A DNA stretch of 39,547 bases from Nitrospirota bacterium (GTDB lineage: Bacteria > Nitrospirota > Nitrospiria > Nitrospirales > Nitrospiraceae). Numbering within the stretch: the stretch's first letter is position 1; every line of letters begins with the position of its first letter. Position numbers and translations under genes: made by a program. Below are positions 10,309-23,018 of the stretch, piece after piece. Under the pieces are notes generated by a model. It saw nothing but the letters and a program-made list of their open reading frames with translations. It was not told where the DNA came from and did not search any database. The stretch covers positions 1 through 39,547 of the forward strand of contig JACQQM010000107.1 of NCBI GenBank assembly GCA_016207025.1, written 5' to 3'.

Positions 10309-10470
10309 TTTGGTGATTTGGCGATTGATTCATTGTGTGATTGAGTGATCGGGTGATTTGGTGATTGAAAATCCACGAGAACTCTTGCAATCACACAATG
10401 GCTCAATCACCCGATGGCTCAATGACCATTCCTCCAATCACTCAATGACCCGATCACTCAATCTCCAATT
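10309..10470. repeat. Long quasi-palindromic repeat of the TGATTGAG/CTCAATCA word
   Basis: The left arm (10309-10371) is a run of degenerate copies of GTGATTGRG. The right arm (10388-10470) is a run of the complementary word (CTCAATCAC, CTCAATGAC). They can pair over about 60 bp with mismatches. It fills most of the divergent gap between hutH and the gene at 10519. No gene lies in it. Confidence 0.85.
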
Positions 10471-10480
10471 CTTCCGCGCC

Positions 10481-10938: not shown

Positions 10939-11016
10939 AAGTTCAAAGTTAAAAAGTTACTGACAAGGAGCGCACCTCTAAACTTTTACCTTTAACCTTT
11001 TCACTTTTACCTTTTT
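10933..11016. repeat. Quasi-palindromic AAAGTTAAAAGTT/AACTTTTACCTTT repeat
   Basis: The left arm (about 10933-10961) is made of AAGTTAAAA words and contains the stop codon of the preceding gene (10936-10938). The right arm (10978-11016) is made of complementary CTTTTAACCTTT words and ends one base before the polA ATG. The two arms can pair imperfectly. The sequence is strikingly AT-rich compared with its surroundings. Confidence 0.85.
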
Positions 11017-11017
11017 G

Positions 11018-13690
11018 ATGCCGACCCTCTACCTCATTGACGGCAGCGCCTATATCTACCGGGCCTTTTTCGCGCTGCCCGCGCTCTCGAACTCCAAGGG
11101 GCTGCAGACGAACGCGGTCTATGGCTTCACGACGATGCTCATGAAGATCTTGCGGGAGCATCAGCCGGCGTATCTGGCGGTAGCGTTTGATGAGAAAGGG
11201 CCGACCCTCCGCCACGAAGAGTACAAGGAGTACAAGGCGCACCGGCCGCCGATGCCTGAGGGCATGCAGGCGCAGATCCCGTACATCCATCGGGTGGTCG
11301 AAGCGTTCGGCTTACCGGTCATCCGGTCCGCCGGCTATGAAGCGGACGACTTGATCGGGACCCTGGCACGCAAAGCGGAAACGGCGGGCTACGAGGTGGT
11401 GATCATCACCGGCGACAAGGACATGTTCCAGCTTCTGACCCCGTCGGTGCGCATCTATGACCCGGTCAAGGACAAGTGGTTCGAGGAAGCCGACTGCCGG
11501 GAGCGCTTCGGGGTAGAGCCTGGGCGGGTGGTGGAGGTCATGGGGCTGATGGGGGACGCCACGGACAATATTCCGGGCGTGAAGGGGATCGGCGAGAAGA
11601 CGGCCATCAAGCTGATCGGGCAGTTCGGGACGATCGAGCATCTGCTGCAGCGGGTGAACGAGGTAACGGCGCCCAAGACGAGAACGCTGCTCACTGAGCA
11701 GGCCGACAACGCCCGCCTCAGCCGGCAACTGGCCACGATTCATGTGGACTGTCCGATCGAGTTCGATCCGGGAAAGTTTCGCGTGACGCCCGCGCCACCC
11801 GAGCCGCTGGTGGCCTTGCTGCGTGAGCTGGAGTTCCCGACGTTGCTGAAAGCGGTCCAGCCGACCGAGGACGCCCCGACCCTTGGCGCCAAGGTGGAGA
11901 TGATCCGGGACGAGGCGGGGGCGCGTCGGTTCGCTGATGGCGTGGCGCAGGGAGAGCCGGTGGCGCTCCAGTGCGTGCTCAGCAGCGCAGCCGGGGTGAC
12001 TGCCGAGCTGCAGGGGCTGGCGCTGAGTACAGGCGGGGGGAGGACGGCGTTCGCGATATGGCACAAGAAGAAACCGTTCCAATCCCTGGTTGATCTGCTG
12101 ACCAGCCGGACGCGCATCAAGGCGGGACATGATCTCAAACCGGCCCTGCTGGCGCTGCAACGAGCGGGCGTGGAACTCCAGGCGCCCTGCTTCGATACGA
12201 TGGTCGCCGCATATCTATTGAATCCCAACCGGCGCACCCACACGCTGGAGGCAGTGGCGCTGGATGTCCTGGGGTATCACCTGGGAGCCGAGCAAGCGGG
12301 AAAAACAAAGAGCGTCCCGACGGATCTCTTCGAAGAACCCGATTCGTCAGCGGCAGCGAAGGCTGCCGAATCGGCGGCCGTGCAAAAGGCCGCGGAAGCG
12401 GCCGTTGTGATCATCCGACTGGTACCGGTGCTGCAAGCGCGGCTGGAAGAACAGGGAAGCCTCCGGCTGTTCGACGAGGTGGAGATGCCGCTGGTGCCGG
12501 TGCTGGTCGAAATAGAAAAGAACGGGTTCGCCCTGGACGTGCGTGTGCTGGAGACGCTCAGCAAGGAGTTAGAGCGGGAGCTGGACCGCATGATGGAGAC
12601 AATCGCAGGGTTGGCGGGCGGAGAGTTTAACATCAACTCGCCGAAGCAACTCGCTGCCGTGCTGTTTGACAAGCTCGGACTCAAACCCGTCCGGAAGACC
12701 AAGACCGGCTATTCGACCGATGAAGAGACGCTGACCCAGTTGGCGACGCAGCACGAGTTGCCGGCCCAGATTCTGAACTACCGGAGCCTCAGCAAGCTCA
12801 AATCCACCTATGTGGATGCGCTCCCCGCGCTCGTGAATCCCGACACCGGCCGGCTGCACACCTCGCTCAACCAGACCGTCACGGCCACCGGGCGACTCTC
12901 GTCTTCCGACCCGAATTTGCAGAATATTCCGGTCAAGGGCGAGTACGGGCTCCGGATTCGTGAGGCCTTTGTGGCGTCCCCCGGTCACACGCTGCTGTGC
13001 GCCGATTACAGCCAGATCGAGCCGCGTATCCTGGCGCATCTCTCGCGGGACGAGCGGCTGGTGAAGGTGTTCGAACGGGGAGAGGATATCCATACCGCCA
13101 CCGCGGTCGAGATTTTCAACCTGGCTCCGGACCAGATTACAAGAGACATGCGGCGCGCGGCCAAGACGGTGGTGTTCGGGATTGTATACGGGATCAGCCC
13201 GTACGGGCTGTCCACCACCCTCGGCGTCTCGCAGCAGGAAGCTAAGAAGTACATTGACGCCTATTTCGAGCGCTACGCGGGCGTGAAGGCGTTTCTGGAT
13301 AGGACCATTGAGGAGGCCAAGCAGCGCGGCTACGTGACGACGATCCTGGGCCGCCGCAGGCCGATCCCGGAATTATCGAGTTCCGATCAGACCCAACGCG
13401 GTTTCGGCGAGCGGATGGCGGTGAACAGCCCGATCCAGGGCTCGGCGGCGGACCTGATCAAGGTCGCGATGATCGCGGTGAGCAAGAAGCTGCACGCCGA
13501 ACTGCCCAACACAAAGATGATCCTGCAGGTGCACGACGAGTTGATCTTCGAGACGCCGGAGAAAGATGTGGAGAAGGCCAAGCAGCTTGTGAAGTCCGAG
13601 ATGGAGAGCGCGGGACCGCGCCTGGGCTTGTCGGTGCCGCTGAAGGTAGATTTAGGCGTCGGTCGCAATTGGAGAGAAGCACATCCGTAA
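11018..13690 (+). CDS. polA: DNA polymerase I
   Basis: An 890-residue polymerase for Okazaki-fragment processing and repair. The 5' nuclease (about 1-290) shows YEADDLIG, ITGDKDMFQL and GDATDNIPGVKGIGEKTA. The middle region (about 290-480) has the 3'-5' exonuclease fold, but its metal-binding residues are lost: VALQCVLS stands where DTE is expected and GHDLKPALL where the next Asp should be. Proofreading is therefore probably absent. The polymerase part has motif A DYSQIEPRILAHLS, motif B RRAAKTVVFGIVYG and motif C QVHDELIFE. In motif A a Pro replaces the near-universal Leu after the steric-gate Glu. The start is ATG 11018; the bases ahead of it belong to a repeat and offer no ribosome binding site. 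Confidence 0.97.
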   Translation: MPTLYLIDGSAYIYRAFFALPALSNSKGLQTNAVYGFTTMLMKILREHQPAYLAVAFDEKGPTLRHEEYKEYKAHRPPMPEGMQAQIPYIHRVVEAFGLPVIRSAGYEADDLIGTLARKAETAGYEVVIITGDKDMFQLLTPSVRIYDPVKDKWFEEADCRERFGVEPGRVVEVMGLMGDATDNIPGVKGIGEKTAIKLIGQFGTIEHLLQRVNEVTAPKTRTLLTEQADNARLSRQLATIHVDCPIEFDPGKFRVTPAPPEPLVALLRELEFPTLLKAVQPTEDAPTLGAKVEMIRDEAGARRFADGVAQGEPVALQCVLSSAAGVTAELQGLALSTGGGRTAFAIWHKKKPFQSLVDLLTSRTRIKAGHDLKPALLALQRAGVELQAPCFDTMVAAYLLNPNRRTHTLEAVALDVLGYHLGAEQAGKTKSVPTDLFEEPDSSAAAKAAESAAVQKAAEAAVVIIRLVPVLQARLEEQGSLRLFDEVEMPLVPVLVEIEKNGFALDVRVLETLSKELERELDRMMETIAGLAGGEFNINSPKQLAAVLFDKLGLKPVRKTKTGYSTDEETLTQLATQHELPAQILNYRSLSKLKSTYVDALPALVNPDTGRLHTSLNQTVTATGRLSSSDPNLQNIPVKGEYGLRIREAFVASPGHTLLCADYSQIEPRILAHLSRDERLVKVFERGEDIHTATAVEIFNLAPDQITRDMRRAAKTVVFGIVYGISPYGLSTTLGVSQQEAKKYIDAYFERYAGVKAFLDRTIEEAKQRGYVTTILGRRRPIPELSSSDQTQRGFGERMAVNSPIQGSAADLIKVAMIAVSKKLHAELPNTKMILQVHDELIFETPEKDVEKAKQLVKSEMESAGPRLGLSVPLKVDLGVGRNWREAHP

Positions 13691-13752: not shown

Positions 13753-13929
13753 ATGCCGACGACCAAGAAGCAGGCAATGGAGATGATCAAGAAGCTGCCG
13801 GAAAGAGTGACGTAGGACGACATCATGTATGAGATTTACGTCCGCAAGAAGATCGAAGCAGGGATCACGGCTGCGGATGAGGGGAGAGTCGTCTCGCATG
13901 AGGAAGTGAAGAAGCGCTTGCTTCGATGA
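13753..13929 (+). pseudogene. Antitoxin gene interrupted by an in-frame TAG
   Basis: From ATG 13753, behind a strong promoter and AAGGAGGT, the frame codes for MPTTKKQAMEMIKKLPERVT, then TAG at 13813-13815, then DDIMYEIYVRKKIEAG...VVSHEEVKKRLLR and TGA at 13927-13929. Continuous, it would be a 58-codon protein. The second part matches the common small antitoxin pattern DDIMY-IYVR-KIE-G...VSHEEV found beside ParE/RelE toxins. The final ATGA overlaps the toxin start. The amber codon replaces a residue just before the conserved DDIMY motif. ATG 13825 could restart translation to give a 34-residue C-terminal fragment. A sequencing error cannot be excluded. Confidence 0.8.
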
Positions 13930-14237
13930 CCCACCTGGAGTGGACCGACCCCGCCGTTGCTGATCTCGAAAACATCCAGGATTATTTAGCCAGAGATTCC
14001 TCGGAGTACGCGAACGCCGTTGTTGAACGGCTGATCCAGTCCGTCGAGCGTCTGAGATCCTTTCCTGAAAGTGGCAGGCTGGTCCCCGAAGCGCCGAATA
14101 CCAAGGTGCGCGAATTTTTCGTGTCCTGCTACCGCATCATTCATCGCGCACGAAAAGACCGAGCGCAGATACTGGCCGTGGTCCATAGCGCTAAAAATCT
14201 GGCCGGCATGCCTCCGAAACCGTGGGATTCAGCTTAA
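13926..14237 (+). CDS. ParE/RelE-family toxin
   Basis: A 103-residue protein with the ParE-type pattern: LEWTDPAVADLENIQDYLARDSSEYANAVVERLIQSVERL, then FPESGRLVPE, then VREFFVSCYRIIHRARKDRAQILAVVHSAKNL. The family includes gyrase poisons (ParE) and ribosome-dependent RNases (RelE). The conserved arginines and the VVHSAKNL end are present, so the toxin looks intact. It overlaps the interrupted antitoxin frame by ATGA. An intact toxin behind a broken antitoxin would be expected to harm the cell unless the antitoxin is still made, the toxin is inactive, or another antitoxin acts. Confidence 0.88.
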   Translation: MTHLEWTDPAVADLENIQDYLARDSSEYANAVVERLIQSVERLRSFPESGRLVPEAPNTKVREFFVSCYRIIHRARKDRAQILAVVHSAKNLAGMPPKPWDSA

Positions 14238-14248
14238 GGTTTGAAGAT

Positions 14249-14587
14249 GCTGGGTGCGGCAGGGCCCGTCGCTCCCGCGCCTCCCGGATAGGAGAGGGAT
14301 GGCCGGACCTGCCCTGCTCAGACGCTCCGGCTCGACCGCACTTAGCCTCCTGCACCCGTTGCAGGAGGTAGAGCAACGGGTACCTGCTCGGCTGCGGAAC
14401 TCGCCCCGTCACAGGCGATGCCTTGACAGGGCTCAAACAGTCCTCGCCGTCCGCTTGCAGCGGACTGCATCTGTTCGGCAAGTGCGGTGCCCGATTCTCC
14501 GCGCAATTCGCGATGCAGGTCCGGCCATTCCTTGGGTAAGGGATCCGCTCCTCCGGCGAAGTCCGCTCTGGTCCAGCCACACCCAGC
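14249..14587. mobile_element. 339-bp element with long imperfect terminal inverted repeats, no transposase
   Basis: The left end (14249-14312) starts GCTGGGTGCGGCAGGGCC and finishes GGCCGGACCTGC. The right end (14515-14587) is its imperfect inverted copy, starting GCAGGTCCGGCC and finishing GGTCCAGCCACACCCAGC. The outer 18 bp match at 15 positions and the inner 12 bp match perfectly. The interior holds strong hairpins at 14346-14368 and 14449-14465. No convincing protein is encoded; the overlapping frames on both strands look spurious. No target-site duplication is clear. It could be a MITE-like non-autonomous element or a large structured RNA. Confidence 0.65.
14346..14381. other. Two mutually exclusive perfect 9-bp hairpins
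   Basis: CCTCCTGCA (14346-14354) pairs with TGCAGGAGG (14360-14368). ACCCGTTGC (14354-14362) pairs with GCAACGGGT (14373-14381). The two stems share bases 14354 and 14360-14362 and cannot form together. The loop of the second exposes AGGAGG on the plus strand. The arrangement looks like an RNA switch inside the 339-bp element. Confidence 0.55.
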
Positions 14588-14727
14588 AGGGTTTCTGGAT
14601 TAGATGTGGGGAACAACTTAGCTTGCGAGAGGCTAAAAAGTCATGACAGCCGACTGCGCTCCACTTCGGTCTCAGCCGTTGCTGAGATCGGTGCCGATTA
14701 GGTAGCGTCCGGCAAAGAGGGAGATGA
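14588..14727. other. Spacer between the repeat element and the broken membrane gene
   Basis: No gene is seen. It contains a perfect 7-bp hairpin, TCTCAGC (14670-14676) with GCTGAGA (14681-14687), followed by a ribosome-binding-site-like AGAGGGAG near 14717. Confidence 0.5.
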
Positions 14728-15111
14728 ATGAGTCTCGGGGCTATCGTAACAGTCTTCGCGTCCATCATCGCCCTAATTGTCTTGGCGCGGATCTTTCCTG
14801 GTACGCACTGGGTACGCATTCTGTTTCAACCCCACGAGCCTCGGACCGAGGTCCACTACTTGACTCGGGCGGAACTTTTCCGAAGCGGAATTGCGTTTAT
14901 TGGGTTTAGGGTAATCTTGGCAGCCTTGTAAGCCGCGTGCGCATGGTTCGTCGGTACGCGTGGTCCAAACGTACACCCTATTCTTGTTGCCATCTTATTC
15001 GGGCTGAGCCTTGCCACCGCAAGTGCAGTTCTTGGTGGTGTAACCCTCATTATACGCGGCTTATTTCGAGCGCAGGACTACAAACCACCGACAGTGGATG
15101 AAGAAGTCTGA
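14728..15111 (+). pseudogene. Small membrane-protein gene broken by an in-frame TAA
   Basis: ATG 14728 has AGAGGGAG just upstream. The frame reads MSLGAIVTVFASIIALIV and on to GFRVILAAL, meets TAA at 14929-14931, then continues in the same frame as AACAWFVGTRGPNVHPILVA and on to YKPPTVDEEV, stopping at TGA 15109-15111. Ignoring the TAA, it would be a protein of about 127 residues with three membrane segments (about 1-23, 52-75, 82-107). The open frame after the stop and its hydrophobic pattern argue that it was once one gene. The family is not recognised. It is the second stop-interrupted gene within 1.4 kb. Confidence 0.7.
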
Positions 15112-21866: not shown

Positions 21867-22949
21867 ATGGGCGACAGCGTGCTCGAACAGATCGCGGCGT
21901 TGAAAGACGAGGATTGGGCCGTCCGCGAGGAAGCGGCCGCGGCGTTGGCCTCGTTCCGCGACCCGCGCGCCGTCATGCCGCTTGTCGCGGTCCTCAAAGA
22001 CCCCGACCGGGCGGTGCGCGAGGCTGCGATTGCCGCATTGACGGCGATCGGGGAAGCGGCGGTCTTGGCGTTGGGCGCCTGTCTCAACGATCGCGACCTG
22101 ACCGTTCAGGAACTAGCCGCCTCGATTCTTGCGACGATCGCGGATGCCCGTGTCCTTGCCCCGCTGATCGGAGCGCTGAACAGCCCGGACTGGATCGTCC
22201 GGATGCATGCCGCAAAAGCCTTGGGGTGCATCGGGGACGCGCACGCGGTCAAGCCCTTGATGCCTTTGCTTGACGACAAGGTCAAGGCGGTGCGGGTGGA
22301 CGCGGCCAACGCATTGGCCCTGCTCGGGAAGGCCGCGGTCCCCGAGTTGCTGGAGGCGTTGAAGCGTGCCGAGTGGCTGGTCCGGCTGCACGCCGTCGAG
22401 GCGCTGGGCAAGATCAAGTCGCCCGACGCCGTGGAGCCCTTGCTGCACGTGATGTTCAACGACCGTGATACGGCGGTACGGGCGGATGCGGCCCGCTCTC
22501 TGGGAGAGATTGGAGATCCTCGAGCGGTGGAGTTCCTGGTGACCGCGATGACCGACGTGGACATCCGACCCGTCGCGGTGGAAGCGTTGGGGAAGATCGG
22601 AGACCGGCGGGCCGTCCCGGCGCTGATTGGCGTGGTGACCGGATCAAGCCGGCCAGCCAACAGCCGGCCGATCGACGGGTGCGGCGATCGGTGGGACCAA
22701 GAGATGCACGCGATGGAAGCCGCCGTGAAGGCCTTGGGGCAGATTCGGGATGAGACCTCGATTCCCACGCTCGTCGCCGCGCTGCAGAACACCGTGATCC
22801 GCGCGGAAGCGGCAGCGGCCCTGGTGGCGCTCGGTCCATCGGCCATCCCGTTCCTCTTGGATGTCCTCAAAAAGGAGCGGGACGAGAATATCCTGTACCA
22901 TGCGAAGGACGCGTTGACCCAATTGGGATGGAGGCCTGGTCGAATCTAA
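21867..22949 (+). CDS. HEAT-repeat protein 2
   Basis: A 360-residue cytoplasmic HEAT solenoid. ATG 21867 (MGDSVLEQIAALKDEDWAVREEA) is chosen because the repeats begin here; the frame is open from TTG 21798, and no strong ribosome binding site marks either. About eleven repeats of the D..VR..AA.AL..IGD..AV..LI form follow. Between repeats near residues 255-285 an insertion with IDGCGDRWDQEMHAMEAAVKAL carries a Cys, comparable to the PGC insertion of HEAT1. The last repeat ends DALTQLGWRPGR, like the other paralogues (LGWEP, LGWKP). A repeat-type hairpin directly after its stop separates it from HEAT3. Confidence 0.88.
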   Translation: MGDSVLEQIAALKDEDWAVREEAAAALASFRDPRAVMPLVAVLKDPDRAVREAAIAALTAIGEAAVLALGACLNDRDLTVQELAASILATIADARVLAPLIGALNSPDWIVRMHAAKALGCIGDAHAVKPLMPLLDDKVKAVRVDAANALALLGKAAVPELLEALKRAEWLVRLHAVEALGKIKSPDAVEPLLHVMFNDRDTAVRADAARSLGEIGDPRAVEFLVTAMTDVDIRPVAVEALGKIGDRRAVPALIGVVTGSSRPANSRPIDGCGDRWDQEMHAMEAAVKALGQIRDETSIPTLVAALQNTVIRAEAAAALVALGPSAIPFLLDVLKKERDENILYHAKDALTQLGWRPGRI

Positions 22950-23018
22950 TGCAAAATGCAAAATGAAAAATCGCCATCCGAAGTAATTTTGTATTTTGAA
23001 TTTTACATTTTGCATTGC
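22949..23018. repeat. Quasi-palindromic ATGCAAAATGCAAAAT repeat
   Basis: The left arm (22949-22971) begins on the last base of the HEAT2 stop codon and consists of ATGCAAA words. The right arm (22987-23018) consists of complementary TTTTGCAT-like words. They pair imperfectly over about 23 bp. It fills most of the HEAT2-HEAT3 gap and is much more AT-rich than its surroundings. Confidence 0.85.

Follow-up and report, generated by a model that had tools for sequence, protein, structure and literature searches.

A composite palindrome behind parE in a Nitrospiraceae genome: nested repeat families A, B and C

Several kinds of bacterial sequence combine a palindromic or folded form with a position between genes. 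MITEs such as Correia/NEMIS and ERIC are short, non-autonomous palindromic repeats of transcribed intergenic regions with conserved ends and, for many, TA duplications. Integron attC sites are conserved more in structure than in sequence and lie behind stop codons in a fixed orientation. For short palindromic repeats behind genes, the usual explanations are selfish DNA driven by RAYTs and stabilisation of RNA. REPs lie mostly downstream of coding regions, and those within 15 nt of a stop codon have been reported to affect translation (PMC12306157, PMC3733652).

The locus considered here lies in a 39,547-nt stretch of DNA (the window) from a Nitrospirota bacterium, in which an initial annotation had described positions 14249-14587 as a single 339-bp element, either MITE-like or a large structured RNA. 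We read these 339 bp as three nested, non-autonomous, dispersed palindromic repeat families of the Nitrospiraceae, of the general REP/MITE kind, with a probability of about 0.7.

A composite palindrome and its three families

The inverted repeat is present with the arms previously assigned to it, 14249-14312 (64 nt) and 14515-14587 (73 nt), and exact seeds recover paired segments at 14248-14266/14570-14588 (84 %) and 14295-14312/14515-14532 (94 %). The element is structured as had been claimed, its fold far surpassing dinucleotide shuffles on both strands (z of -4.79 and -5.33, with 0 of 100 shuffles as good). Neither of the two ORFs that overlap the palindrome has a Pfam match, in agreement with the earlier view that no protein is convincing, and a protein-coding reading was rejected.

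The initial annotation had proposed a nucleotide search, adding that a single copy with no covariation would argue against a mobile or structured element; instead there are many copies and, as described below, strong covariation. When the 339 bp were compared with the genome of origin (a Nitrospiraceae MAG, 2.47 Mb, 174 contigs, 85 % complete), 56 matches were obtained and these fall into three blocks, namely q1-40 with q297-339 (family A), q44-283 (family B) and q105-136 (family C). Judged from these matches, the arms of the palindrome are composite, the outer 40 and 43 nt belonging to family A and the inner 18-20 nt being the terminal stem of family B, and the whole reads as A[B[C]], an outer A shell around a complete B element that has a C hairpin within it. 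Hence, the element is dispersed, multicopy and structured as the initial annotation had supposed, but it is not a single unit.

The left arm of the A shell (14249..14288, + strand) matches stand-alone A copies over q1-40, and positions 4-50 of the nhmmer A model align to 14242-14288. The right arm (14545..14587, + strand) matches A copies over q297-339, with model positions 168-212 aligning to 14544-14587. The central core that an A element has of its own is missing here and its place is occupied by the B element (14294..14533, + strand), which is bounded by the terminal stem 14294-14533 and is 85 %, 83 % and 77 % identical to own-genome copies C50, C21 and C155, respectively. The B stem starts where the fourth helix of A would, and both arms of A are cut at matching points, so that the joined palindrome stays continuous. 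The REP-like C hairpin, CCCGTTGC(n)GCAACGGG, lies within B at about 14353..14384 (+ strand) and is absent from other B copies (L004, L033, L035, L037, L044 and L050), which read straight through.

Each family also occurs without the others. Stand-alone A copies are palindromes of about 175-240 bp with their own conserved core between the arms, and B copies elsewhere are complete palindromes of about 200-240 bp that are 77-85 % identical to that in the window. The 25-35 bp C hairpin occurs both on its own and within some copies of A and of B, and there are A copies without B and B copies without C. As lower bounds, the genome of origin holds at least 11 copies of A, 6 of B and 45 of C; exact C hairpins number 45 there and up to 76 in relatives, with 0 for a reversed-pattern control. 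At E<=1e-8, A was found in 13 and B in 11 of 31 genomes, own genome included and all from the family of the window, and each is present in about half of the related genera. A weaker search also placed B in G039, from a sister family. When 85,000 species, from which the own genome may be left out, were scanned with the A-core pattern, the matches listed were almost only from Nitrospira/Nitrospiraceae contigs. There was no match to A, B or C in phage, plasmid and viral contig collections, nor to the window in Rfam 15 at the gathering threshold, and at a relaxed Rfam threshold the element and its relatives gave nothing meaningful. We found no description of the three families in the literature on Nitrospira repeats, though the palindromes of N. 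moscoviensis have been counted in one survey (PMC12306157).

A further family, F, has a core like GTGCTCGCTCGATGCGCGCAGT and a variable, paired outer stem, and also lies directly behind stop codons, with examples at the purC and trpD 3' ends (L326, L333, L340, L342 and L299). Matches to the F core number up to 64 in one genome (G016) and 15 in that of the window. A-core-like motifs were also seen in contigs not labelled Nitrospirota, Patescibacteria among them (L164 3288-3351, L176 2756-2829, L205 4558-4606 and L228 338-389). Only the core motif is shared in these four, the outer stems being their own and unrelated to those of A, yet paired. These motifs may reflect cross-phylum presence or shared ancestry. 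L234, another hit outside Nitrospirota, looks misbinned, its neighbouring gene being 89 % identical to that of Nitrospira.

Placement behind genes and at orthologous sites

Most A and B copies lie directly behind genes, usually within about 30 bp of the stop codon, and on the strand of the upstream gene. With gene neighbours taken from our own codon-statistics scoring of ORFs rather than curated annotation, and with many loci found through the A-core pattern, the upstream gene is on the same strand for 59 A copies and not for 28, the figures for B being 24 and 4. Between codirectional genes, 20 A copies are sense and 6 antisense (10 and 1 for B), and the median distance from the stop codon to the start of a sense copy there is 10 bp for A and 2.5 bp for B. 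For roughly one in three A copies, there is no same-strand gene in front.

Occupied and empty orthologous sites were both observed, and the same ortholog ends may carry A, B, another palindrome or nothing; the ortholog names used here (trpD, purC, purQ, tyrS and mutase-like) were read from protein sequence and not from a family search. Between trpD and trpC, A follows the stop codon directly in three genomes and other palindromes are found in several, while the two genes abut or overlap in about 15 of 26. The 3' end of purC carries B in three sampled genomes, F in about ten and A in two further loci, and elsewhere either other palindromes or a next gene that nearly abuts. A gene for a 498-aa mutase-like protein is followed by A in G014 and by B in G010, and purQ by B in G012 and by A in another contig. 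Some shared sites (trpD in four genera, and pqqC) may be old and vertically inherited, with later compensatory change at, for example, trpD.

In the window, the element follows a parDE unit that lies downstream of the chromosomal polA gene (11015..13690, + strand; Pfam PF00476), orthologues of which are present in 27 of the 31 family genomes. The parD antitoxin frame (13753..13929, + strand, from translation) is broken; it starts at 13753 and has an in-frame TAG at codon 21, and is uninterrupted in the related loci L352 and L055. The parE toxin gene (13926..14237, + strand; Pfam PF05016, E=4e-15) looks intact and its stop codon lies 11 bp before 14249. The surroundings are toxin-antitoxin-rich as described, containing besides parE a DUF433/DUF5615 pair that looks toxin-antitoxin-like. 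In three other genera (G014, G019 and G046), polA-parDE is found without the element behind parE, and in G014 an A copy sits between polA and parDE instead. Whereas the parDE unit starts right at the polA stop codon in the window, in G014 it starts right at the end of A. The A shell of the window and the G014 copy (L055) are probably the same copy, the parDE unit having moved relative to it, because by BLAST their left arms are 97 % identical although such arms normally diverge fast.

Other features of the region were also recorded. Small toxin-antitoxin units that start right at the polA stop codon make the 3' end of this gene (13690 in the window; L352-L379 in relatives) a hot spot, and in L365 and L374 the last 25-43 bp of polA are repeated 0.4-0.75 kb further downstream in the manner of an attachment-site duplication. 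Repeated GATTGAGTGATC-type inverted and direct motifs lie at 10310-10471 between a hutH-like gene and the next gene, and an AT-rich 24-bp inverted repeat (AATGCAAAATG...) lies at 22948-23016 in the gap between two genes.

Covariation, strand preference and modes of spread

A covariance analysis of copies had also been proposed, and strong covariation is seen when 48 copies of A and 20 of B are aligned. Two-sided changes affect 34 of 47 pairs in A and 26 of 39 in B, and their number, 323 in A and 81 in B, compares with shuffled means of 97 and 20; none of 500 shuffles reached the observed value in either family. Sliding the partner by one column lowers the proportion of paired cells from 92 % to 34-47 %. 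Both families have a conserved core, which in A includes invariant internal-loop bases (CCTTC.G.AATTCC ... GGTCAGTT), and an outermost stem that is the part most variable in sequence yet stays paired.

The covariation, the invariant bases in the A core and the sense orientation behind genes would all suit a large structured ncRNA family whose copies are retained because they act as RNA, for instance in protein binding or riboregulation. However, G-U pairs, which should be the commoner in an RNA selected on one strand, are not in excess of A-C mismatches on the sense strand (57 and 66 in A, 24 and 21 in B), and since single transitions create the two equally, this equality means that selection for G-U is not detectable on either strand. 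The tRNAs of the same loci gave 11 G-U and 0 A-C, a weak control in that it is small and the program used may be confined to drawing accepted pairs. For A and B, RNA-strand selection is thus unsupported. Rfam holds no match and most orthologous sites are without a copy, and the structured-RNA label given earlier does not fit cleanly; we consider an ncRNA family unlikely. The equality favours a DNA-level cause of the complementarity, which could be folding of single-stranded DNA or homogenisation of the arms by template switching, a process described in E. coli and yeast (PMC7202029, PMC8604942).

The MITE-like label fits no better. A classical MITE would have conserved terminal inverted repeats, recognised by the DDE transposase that moves it, and would have target duplications; the long terminal inverted repeat, the size of 180-340 bp and the dispersal are as expected of one. 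A true MITE is indeed present in the group, a 583-bp unit of G012 (L281 1568-2150, L283, L285 and L287) that has ISL3-like terminal repeats of 26 bp and target duplications of 8 bp and that carries a family A copy as passenger together with a C-like hairpin. It shows one way in which an A copy can move, not the general one, and its ends are unrelated to those of A. By contrast, conservation in A and B is lowest at the ends, and flanking duplications were not found, target-site duplications of >=5 bp being seen at 4 of 78 A copies (1.2 expected by shuffling) and 0 of 24 B copies (0.3 expected). Hence, for A and B as units, a classical MITE is improbable and largely refuted. No transposase could be tied to families A, B or C and no transposition was observed. 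A RAYT/Y1 transposase was rejected as the mover because the presence of PF01797 does not track copies; RAYT (PF01797) was absent from the A-rich genomes G004, G009 and G010, the last of which carries 30 C hairpins.

More improbable still are attC-like cassette sites, in which a folded site behind each gene would serve to move that gene. The position directly behind stop codons, the fixed orientation, a structure conserved over sequence and the different starting points of parDE in the window and in G014 are all in keeping with such sites, but the genes in front are core genes kept in operons (trpD, purC, purQ and tyrS) while the element varies, and A and B exceed attC two- to threefold in length. 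Intrinsic transcription terminators would also be hairpins right behind stop codons but can practically be dismissed. Nothing resembling a terminator is present in 14150-14760, the 8 nt that follow the stem contain four or more T in just 7 of the 78 copies of A and 3 of the 24 of B, and many copies are within operons, a short way in front of another gene on the same strand.

Under the preferred reading of nested dispersed repeats, an A element lies behind parE, B has replaced its distal hairpin and the small C hairpin sits in B. We infer mobility for all three, each family having presumably spread by inserting at the 3' ends of genes, probably via a folded single-stranded DNA form or by template switching at replication, either of which would let the arms stay complementary without a G-U stage. 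Where transcribed, the elements would form long 3' UTR hairpins and these could make the upstream message decay more slowly or alter its translation, as is the case for REPs in E. coli; the position of A and B suggests such a role, in that placement at stop codons without terminator signals resembles that of REPs.

Tentatively, and as a possibility we rate well below even, A, B and F may constitute an undescribed class of DNA-shaped 3' elements, orientation-specific at stop codons, with a conserved core bound by a putative protein and an outer stem of free sequence, the arms of which would owe their lasting complementarity to DNA processes (insertion as a folded single strand, or correction of the arms by template switching). 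If so, the class would extend across phyla through the A-core-like motifs of Patescibacteria contigs. Several long families here have one position and one design in common without a RAYT, and covariation is strong with no sign of RNA-strand selection. What keeps bacterial palindromes palindromic thus becomes directly testable using the orthologous sites at trpD, purC and pqqC, which may be empty or hold A, B or another palindrome. Two covariation models are supplied for a group that matters in nitrification and is without representation in Rfam.

Comparison with known palindromic repeats

A and B resemble attC in that structure is conserved beyond sequence and orientation behind stop codons is fixed, but they are longer, the genes in front are not cassettes and there is no array. 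In contrast to Correia/NEMIS and ERIC, the ends of A and B diverge freely and duplication is not seen. With the REP/BIME elements (GTAG- and CGTC-tagged; PMC3733652, PMC12306157), the three families share a dispersed, palindromic and extragenic nature, a position mostly behind coding regions and often near the stop codon, and nested or mosaic arrangements. REP/BIME are 20-40 bp long, whereas A and B are 175-240 bp, and only family C is REP-like in size. Neither the A and B consensus nor that of C (...GCAACGGGTACC) has a GTAG or CGTC end, and A and B are further distinguished from REP/BIME by having a conserved core and an outer stem that is hypervariable and covaries, and by the absence of a RAYT link. 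Extragenic palindromic repeats are of an ordinary kind, and A, B and C are undescribed relatives of the known bacterial intergenic palindromic repeats; what is new is the family, its size and design, and the finding together of strong covariation and a lack of strand preference.
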